A stretch of 43,377 bases of DNA, taken from assembly GCA_026388255.1 (NCBI GenBank), contig JAPLKC010000037.1, positions 1-43,377 on the forward strand. Reading direction: 5' to 3'. Position 1 is the stretch's first letter, and the number at the start of each line of letters is the position of its first letter. Positions 12,637-35,563 of this stretch are shown in pieces. Both the position numbers and the translations under genes were made by a program. This DNA comes from Pseudomonadota bacterium. GTDB lineage: Bacteria; Desulfobacterota; Syntrophorhabdia; Syntrophorhabdales; Syntrophorhabdaceae. The notes under the pieces are model-generated. The model was given only the letters and a program-made list of their open reading frames with translations, was not told the origin of the DNA and did no database searches.

Positions 12637-12712
12637 CGGGGCGTAGCGCAGCATGGTTTAGCGCACCTGCTTGGGGTGCAGGAGGCCGCAGGTTCAAATC
12701 CCGTCGCCCCGA
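12637..12712 (+). tRNA. tRNA-Pro (anticodon GGG)
   Basis: A 76-base cloverleaf. The acceptor stem CGGGGCG (12637-12643) pairs with CGCCCCG (12705-12711), with discriminator A. The D-loop contains GGTTTAGC. The anticodon stem CCTGC/GCAGG encloses loop TTGGGGT, anticodon GGG at 12673-12675. The T-arm is GCAGG TTCAAAT CCCGT. The 5' C1 and the GGG anticodon fit proline. The CCA end is not encoded. Confidence 0.95.
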
Positions 12713-24519: not shown

Positions 24520-24729
24520 ATGCATAGAGAATTTAGTGTAGTTATTGAAAAGGATGAAGATGGATATTTTGTAGCCTCGGTGCCCACGTTGCGAGGGTGT
24601 CACACACAGGCAAAATCACTTGATATACTAATGAAAAGAATCAAAGAAGCAATTGAACTTTGTCTGGAAGTAGAAGACCCTGCAAATACTGAGTTTATTG
24701 GTGTACAGCGTGTGGCGGTCACTGCGTGA
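24520..24729 (+). CDS. hicB: HicB-family antitoxin
   Basis: A 69-residue HicB partial-RNase-H-fold antitoxin: MHREFSVVIEKDEDGYFVAS then VPTLRGCHTQAKSLDILMKRIKEAIEL. I chose ATG 24520 because GAAGGA lies seven bases before it and the sequence aligns with the family start. An ATG at 24505 is also in frame. The protein lacks the C-terminal DNA-binding domain of longer HicB proteins. Its stop overlaps the GTG of hicA. The order hicB before hicA is the reverse of the E. coli locus but common elsewhere. Confidence 0.88.
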   Translation: MHREFSVVIEKDEDGYFVASVPTLRGCHTQAKSLDILMKRIKEAIELCLEVEDPANTEFIGVQRVAVTA

Positions 24730-24950
24730 GCTATTTTCCTGCCATAACCGGTAAACATCTTATTAAAGCCCTAAAGAAGATAGGTTTTGAGGTAGTTCGA
24801 AGCAAGGACAGCCACAACTTCCTCCAACACTCTGATGGCAGGTGCACGGTGGTGCCTGTACATCCAGGTGAAACAATCGGACGCGGACTTTTAGCTTAAA
24901 TTATACGTGACTGTGAAATAACCTCAGAAGACTTGAAGAACATATTATGA
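24726..24950 (+). pseudogene. hicA: HicA mRNA interferase with an in-frame nonsense codon
   Basis: GTG 24726 opens a frame reading SYFPAITGKHLIKALKKIGF, then SKDSHNFL with the catalytic His of HicA, and VVPVHPGETIGRGLLA. A TAA follows at 24897-24899. The same frame continues IIRDCEITSEDLKNIL to TGA 24948-24950, which matches the normal HicA C-terminus (family: G-T-L-x-x-I-I-R-x-A-G-L). So one codon, perhaps an original AAA, became TAA. The truncated 57-residue product keeps the catalytic His and may or may not be active. Confidence 0.85.
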
Positions 24951-34004: not shown

Positions 34005-34130
34005 TGACAGGTGACTAAGGTAAGGAATGATTGCGCAGAAGACAGATGACTGAACATGGAGATAGGTATCAAATTATTCCGTGTTGATGGATAACACTTT
34101 TTGTATGATTCATAGACAAAAGGAGGCGTT

Positions 34131-34367
34131 ATGAACATTTTTATTGAATATTGTGCTGCTTGAAACTTTCTTCCTCAAGCTTCCAGGGTGGAAGCGGAAT
34201 TGAAGTCAAAATATCCTGATTCAATTATTAAATTGATCGAAGGCGGCGGCGGCATCTTCGATGTAAAGTTTAACGGCAAGTTGATCTACTCTAAACAAAA
34301 TATTAAGGGACAGCGATTCCCTGACAAGGGAGAAATCTCCAGGTTGATCGACCAGGAGATAGGCTGA
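34131..34367 (+). CDS. SelW/Rdx-family selenoprotein (UGA decoded as selenocysteine)
   Basis: A gene of 78 codons with an in-frame TGA at 34161-34163. AGGAGG (34121-34126) precedes ATG 34131. The protein reads MNIFIEYCAA-U-NFLPQASRV (U = codon 11), then KLIEGGGGIFDVKFNGKLIY, and ends near RLIDQEIG. This is the whole thioredoxin-like Rdx domain: the redox motif is CxxU at residues 8-11, where relatives have CxxC or CxxU, and the GGxFDV loop is conserved. TGA at exactly that site and unbroken homology afterwards argue for selenocysteine rather than a nonsense mutation. The role is probably thiol redox; the partner is unknown. Confidence 0.88.
34171..34199 (+). promoter_or_regulatory. Bacterial SECIS-like hairpin
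   Basis: A stem GCTTCCA (34179-34185), loop GGG (34186-34188), TGGAAGC (34189-34195) pairs perfectly. It is extended by TTCC (34171-34174) and GGAA (34196-34199) after a TCAA bulge. The loop begins 22 bases after the UGA, in the distance range for bacterial SECIS elements read by SelB, and holds the guanosines expected in the apical loop. Confidence 0.75.
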
Positions 34368-34600
34368 CTTTTAACAGGAAGCCGTAAGTAAAGTCGAGGT
34401 GTAGAAGGAAAGAAGGGCAAATAATAGTGTATAAAAAGCCCTCTTTATTTCTGTGAAACGATGTGGTATATGAGAAGTCTCTCTTAACTCGCACAGCATA
34501 CGAGAAGGGGAGGTCGGGGTATTCGCTTGCGGGTCCCTTTATGCTCGTGAAGAACTCAACCTGTTTATTGACGGGCCGGTTAAGTCACTTTGATAAAAAG

Positions 34601-35563
34601 ATGAAAACAATAATTTATGACGGAAAGCTGAAGTATGTTAAGAACTACCCCGCCCCCATACCAGAGGAGGGAGAGGCCCTGATACGGGTAACATTGGCAG
34701 GTATCTGCAATACCGACCTTGAAATCATGCAGGGCTATCTGGGATTTCAGGGTGTTATGGGGCACGAATTTGTTGGGGTTGTTGAAAATGTGAATAGCAA
34801 AAGCTGCCATTTAGTCGGAAAAAGGGTGGTCGGAGAAATTAATTGCGACTGCGGTGTCTGCGATTACTGCATGAAGGGTCTTCAAAAGCACTGCCCTGAC
34901 CGGAAGACAATGGGGATTTCAGGTAAAAACGGGGCCTTTGCCGAGTACATAACGCTGCCGGCAGACAATCTGTTGGAAGTGCCGGACAACCTTTCCGATG
35001 AAGAAGCTGTATTTGCCGAGCCTTTGGCGGCTGCCTTTGAGATATTGGAACAGCTTCATATAAAACCAACAGATAGGATTATTATCCTCGGAGATGGAAA
35101 ACTGGGAATACTCGTCTCCCTTGCCCTCAATCTTACCCAGGCCGATGTAACACTTGCCGGAAGGCATGAAAAAAAATTGCAGGTCGCACGGGAACAGCAC
35201 GTAAAGACTATTCATCTCAAGGACTTAAACATCAGAAAGGAATACGATGTTGTTGTGGAGGCAACAGGCTCTGCAGACGGTTTTGATTTTGCCCTTAAAC
35301 TGGTGAAACCAAGGGGGACAATCGTTCTGAAAACCACCGTTGCATATGGAAAAGAGATGAACCTTGCACCTGTTGTGATTGATGAAATACAGGTTATCGG
35401 CTCACGTTGCGGACCCTTTGAACCGGCGCTCCGGGCAATGGCAAAAAAGCTTATAAACGTAAAGCCTCTTATAAGTGCGACTTACAAACCGGACATGGTA
35501 TTGGCAGCCTTTAAAAAGGCAAGATCAAGAGAAGCGCTTAAAGTACTTCTGGACTTCAGTTAA
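34601..35563 (+). CDS. Zinc-dependent alcohol dehydrogenase (threonine/sorbitol dehydrogenase-like)
   Basis: A 320-residue MDR enzyme from ATG 34601. The frame is open for 46 more codons upstream, but those residues do not fit the family. The catalytic zinc ligands are Cys in GICNTDLEI, and His and Glu in GHEFVG. The four cysteines of the structural zinc are in CDCGVCDYCMKGLQKHC. The nucleotide-binding loop is GDGKLGILVS. It oxidises a secondary alcohol or amino alcohol with NAD; the substrate is unknown. The 34368-34600 gap shows nothing convincing. Confidence 0.87.
   Translation: MKTIIYDGKLKYVKNYPAPIPEEGEALIRVTLAGICNTDLEIMQGYLGFQGVMGHEFVGVVENVNSKSCHLVGKRVVGEINCDCGVCDYCMKGLQKHCPDRKTMGISGKNGAFAEYITLPADNLLEVPDNLSDEEAVFAEPLAAAFEILEQLHIKPTDRIIILGDGKLGILVSLALNLTQADVTLAGRHEKKLQVAREQHVKTIHLKDLNIRKEYDVVVEATGSADGFDFALKLVKPRGTIVLKTTVAYGKEMNLAPVVIDEIQVIGSRCGPFEPALRAMAKKLINVKPLISATYKPDMVLAAFKKARSREALKVLLDFS

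Follow-up and report, generated by a model that had tools for sequence, protein, structure and literature searches.

SelW-like proteins were the most abundant selenoprotein family, with 48 genes, in the 2005 survey of the Sargasso Sea, and their function was described as unclear, the CxxU motif suggesting a redox function (PMC1088965). Among Deltaproteobacteria, SelW-like selenoproteins are tabulated for Geobacter sulfurreducens and Desulfotalea psychrophila in a 2006 study whose list also includes Syntrophus aciditrophicus, there without a SelW-like entry (PMC1794560). A 2015 study found SelW genes of Epsilonproteobacteria that had been wholly missed by annotation (PMC4607533), which is the same situation as a sequence-only reading had described for the locus analyzed here, found within a stretch of 43,377 nucleotides (the window). 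We conclude, with a probability of about 96%, that this locus is an intact gene for a small thioredoxin-fold SelW/Rdx selenoprotein in which UGA specifies selenocysteine (Sec). It was found by reading raw sequence; genes of this kind tend to be cut short or overlooked by gene callers.

The selW-like gene lies on the forward strand (34131..34367), with its ATG at 34131, its coding part at 34131-34364 and a TGA stop at 34365-34367. A Shine-Dalgarno sequence, AAGGAGG (34120..34126), stands 4 nt upstream of the ATG, and a GGAGG-type site is found ahead of the ATG in most close relatives as well. The frame encodes 78 residues, of which the eleventh is specified by an in-frame TGA (34161..34163) in a CxxU motif (C8-A-A-U11), and 67 sense codons follow that TGA. 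When the TGA is read as Cys, the product matches the Pfam Rdx domain (PF10262) with 64 bits (E 1.4e-17, cut-off 22.6) over residues 3-74, on both sides of the TGA, and it also scores above cut-off with NCBIfam NF041051 (90.8 bits, only slightly higher than the cut-off of 88) and TIGR02174 (50.4 bits). The sequence-only reading had listed a ribosome site, an ATG, 78 codons with C8 and U11 and Rdx homology continuing for 67 residues past the TGA, and direct reading and the profile match agree with it on each of these points. One could instead take the UGA as a real stop, giving a short peptide and a separate downstream protein started internally, for which the 67 open codons might speak; however, the downstream frame is without a Met codon, no ribosome site lies ahead of the hairpin described below, and the Rdx fold cannot do without beta strand 1 and C8, both encoded upstream of the UGA, so we give this explanation practically no credence. 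The window contains 12 in-frame TGAs outside the main ORFs that are followed by at least 45 open codons, and of these the one in the selW-like gene was searched against the family libraries. At gathering thresholds, the sole Rfam match in the window is a tRNA-Pro at 12637. Elsewhere in the window, a short frame at 24690-24900 (+) (CGGHCVSYFPAITGKHLIKALKKIGFEVVRSKDS) looks by eye like a HicA-type toxin, as in toxin-antitoxin pairs.

Because the TGA is a single base away from TGC and TGT and the assembly is a draft of 147 contigs, a Cys codon that has mutated in a pseudogene, or has been misread in sequencing, must be considered. Against this, all 13 relatives recovered from bacterial and archaeal genome contigs have TGA at the Sec codon; these loci come from independent assemblies, mostly Syntrophus, Syntrophales and Deltaproteobacteria MAGs, and the TGA is kept at the same codon in 61 distinct sequences, with the remaining frame conserved and the hairpin covarying. 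In the family of the source genome, 8 of 39 genomes hold a relative, and the gene is therefore dispensable; all full-length matches there carry TGA with the exception of one tandem paralogue, and a further match (L043) ends at a contig edge, short of the Sec codon. Across the phylum (395 genomes), 57 Rdx matches were found in 56 genomes, 52 with the in-frame TGA (one of them, in G154, additionally with an in-frame TAG) and five without it, namely those of G135, G149 and G117, the G029 paralogue and that of G391. The codon was read for the first four: it is TGT in G135 (L045) and G149, likewise a Cys codon in G117, and GGA (Gly) in the G029 paralogue. Comparison with Cys-bearing SelW homologues had been proposed as a check, and in these homologues the Cys sits at the position of U11 in CxxU. 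Neither a random stop nor sequencing error can explain this pattern, and we rejected sequencing error as the source of the TGA, the same codon being TGA in dozens of species. The conserved TGA already refutes the pseudogene or error explanation, to which we give a negligible probability. In one TGA-bearing member, from the Nitrospirae MAG MYbin3 (L033), Trp replaces the first Cys of the motif (YWVVU) and the C-terminal part lacks conservation; that gene is possibly decaying.

A hairpin of 7 bp closed by a GGG loop had been noted 15 bases after the UGA, and we read it there, at 34179..34195 (+), as GCTTCCA-GGG-TGGAAGC; its invariant loop G (34186) is the 23rd base after the UGA. According to the bSECIS model given in a 2026 review (PMC13188914), an upper stem of 4-16 bp carries an apical loop of 3-9 nt that has G in its first two positions and, as a rule, G or U next; the distance from the UGA to the apical loop is 16-37 nt. 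The hairpin in the window fits a bacterial SECIS element in stem, loop and distance: it can be drawn with 7 bp and GGG, at 22 nt from the UGA, or with 6 bp and AGGGU, at 21 nt, the latter loop (A-G-G-G-U) conforming to N1-G-G-N-N2 with A-U as N1-N2. Folded alone, the 17-nt hairpin has an energy of -8.3 kcal/mol, equalled by 2 of 200 shuffles. The 66 nt after the UGA have an ordinary folding energy (z -0.37), and because this context is not unusually stable, we base the case for the hairpin on covariation, not on energy.

For this purpose we used the 61 distinct TGA-bearing sequences that were left once unrelated frames among the regular-expression matches had been filtered out. They align without any gap between the TGA and the end of the hairpin, and position 1 is the base that follows the UGA. 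Two pairs, 18-30 and 21-27, each join two third-codon (silent) positions, and both are canonical in all 61 sequences while occurring in five types apiece (TA, CG, GC, TG and AT for 18-30; CG, TA, AT, TG and GC for 21-27). In 10,000 permutations of codons within amino acids, the number of canonical pairs averaged 37 and reached at most 48 for 18-30, and averaged 52 with a maximum of 59 for 21-27; a stricter, stratified permutation gave maxima of 54 and 60, respectively, so that 61 was never reached. When synonymous codons were drawn by usage, the means were 16 and 21, and the 11 combinations of wobble positions that are not partners were canonical in 9 to 53 of the 61 sequences. By parsimony on a tree that is rough, being built from short proteins, position 18 changed at least 8 times and position 30 at least 10 times, and positions 21 and 27 at least 7 and 6 times, so the compensation has been repeated and does not go back to one inherited switch. 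Within the window's close subgroup, the stems of L030 (GCCTCT/AGAGGC) and L033 (GCTTCT/AGAAGC) depart from GCTTCC/GGAAGC by paired changes of this kind alone. In the loop, position 23 is G in 61 of 61 sequences and position 24 is T in 45 and G in 16. Pair 16-32, the outermost, is disrupted in 20 of the 61 sequences, and the widely conserved stem therefore consists of the inner 5 pairs; the sixth is retained in the window's subgroup. With its silent-site covariation, this SECIS family of 61 sequences could serve as a tool for detecting further members.

The G029 genome provides a control, in that a second Rdx copy, the tandem paralogue with GGA in place of the Sec codon (L098, G029:C134:8200-9300, from about base 696), lies approximately 340 bp downstream of a TGA copy. 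Its hairpin is weakened by TCC -> TTC and GTG -> GCC, which turn pair 20-28 into U-G and pair 21-27 into C-C. In this single case, the copy that lost the UGA also has the decayed hairpin, as expected. The Cys-bearing L045 has, by inspection, only three inner pairs left. A further coupling concerns residues 17 and 20 (Sec being residue 11), whose codons contribute to pair 19-29 and which are either Ser-Glu or Ala-Ala, a pattern striking in the counts. It could reflect a constraint of SECIS pairing on helix 1 from which a paralogue without the UGA would drift freely, and if true it would offer a case, open to testing, in which a signal in the RNA directs how the protein evolves. We consider such a constraint unlikely, and we did not retain the coupling as evidence: the 3' side of pair 19-29 changes once only on the tree, the Cys homologue L045 is likewise Ala-Ala, and the coupling could equally be one inherited switch.

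The sequence-only reading implied a genome encoding SelA, SelB, SelC and SelD, and it would have been abandoned had selB and selC been absent. We searched the source genome (3.83 Mb, 98.3% complete, the 147-contig draft) family by family and obtained profile matches for all four: SelA (573 bits), SelB (373 bits, with the C-terminal winged-helix domains SelB-wing_2 and wing_3), SelD (375 bits) and a tRNA-Sec with anticodon UCA (74.1 bits, above the family cut-off). SelD itself has one in-frame TGA, in the N-terminal active-site segment GAGU (G000:C36:16706-17620, L018); a formate dehydrogenase alpha chain (G000:C101:29559-31565, L099) and a second Fdh-like frame (G000:C93:2065-2835) each have one in-frame TGA as well. 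SelD and the formate dehydrogenase alpha chain are probably selenoproteins, and as candidate selenoprotein genes they fit a working Sec system. SelA was above cut-off in 52 of the 53 genomes that hold the TGA form, the exception being 82% complete, but 19 of 21 sampled relatives in which Rdx gave no match have SelA too; since it is nearly universal in the group, its co-occurrence is necessary but not discriminating. This complete machinery also bears on the suggestion that the UGA is decoded as some other amino acid, such as Trp or the product of near-cognate readthrough. Nothing specific favors such decoding, which we regard as very improbable given the Sec machinery, the CxxU position at which Cys homologues have Cys, the covarying SECIS-like hairpin and the use of TGA as an ordinary stop elsewhere, including at the end of the selW-like gene itself. 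The original assignment of the TGA to Sec in a CxxU motif is supported by the conserved TGA, the covarying hairpin and the Sec machinery.

In the explanation that we favor, SelA would charge tRNA-Sec using selenophosphate from SelD, and SelB would carry the Sec-tRNA-Sec and read the UGA at codon 11 as selenocysteine. The C-terminal winged-helix domains of SelB are predicted to bind the hairpin 15 nt past the UGA, and SelB bound in this way would let translation pass the UGA to yield the full 78-residue protein, a small thioredoxin-fold product with C8-x-x-U11 as its presumed thiol/selenol redox centre. Both the insertion of Sec and the redox activity of the product are what we infer for this gene.

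An AlphaFold2 model built from a 14-row alignment has a pLDDT of 95.4, and the 23 best PDB matches to it are all SelW-related or MIEN1, with TM values of 0.82-0.88 to bacterial SelW-related crystal structures. C8-A-A-U11 lies between strand 1 (2-8) and helix 1 (14-27) of the predicted structure, as the motif does in thioredoxin-like CxxC proteins, and the motif and the family together suggest a redox role for it. Upstream of the gene are an Asp/Glu racemase-family protein and a UPF0261 protein, and downstream is a zinc alcohol dehydrogenase. A conserved neighbor was seen in one genome of the same genus (the alcohol dehydrogenase) and also in two nearly identical MAG loci; otherwise, comparison of the neighborhood across relatives gave no conserved neighbor. 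Because they are not common to most relatives, the neighbors do not point to any partner; the selW-like gene probably stands alone, and the neighborhood adds nothing on what bacterial SelW-like proteins reduce. The ORF at 34463-35563 (+) starts with GTG at 34463 and has alcohol dehydrogenase homology from residue 69 only, and a start further in, at an ATG near 34602, is likelier.

In mammalian SelW the SECIS element is located in the 3'-UTR, in contrast to the hairpin just past the UGA here. The Rdx structures 3DEX, 2FA8, 2OJL, 2OBK and 2OKA and mouse SelW (2NPB) have the same fold as our prediction, with 3DEX differing by a Cys at the Sec position, where the window protein has U11. The protein clears the curated cut-off of TIGR02174 and barely that of NF041051 (SelT/SelW/SelH family (seleno)protein), a model named for Campylobacter-type members, and a search of plasmids gave one SelT/SelW/SelH protein, 33% identical, and nothing else of use. 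The gene resembles the bacterial SelW-like genes described earlier (PMC1088965, PMC1794560) in its CxxU motif, its small Rdx domain and its UGA followed by a SECIS hairpin; the window copy and its Syntrophales-type MAG relatives form a subgroup with the loop (C/A)G(T/G)GT, which is no difference in principle. That anaerobe-type genomes which use Sec encode Rdx proteins with a CxxU motif is already known, and the evidence supports well the view that the gene in the window is a further, ordinary member of the bacterial SelW-like family known since 2005.
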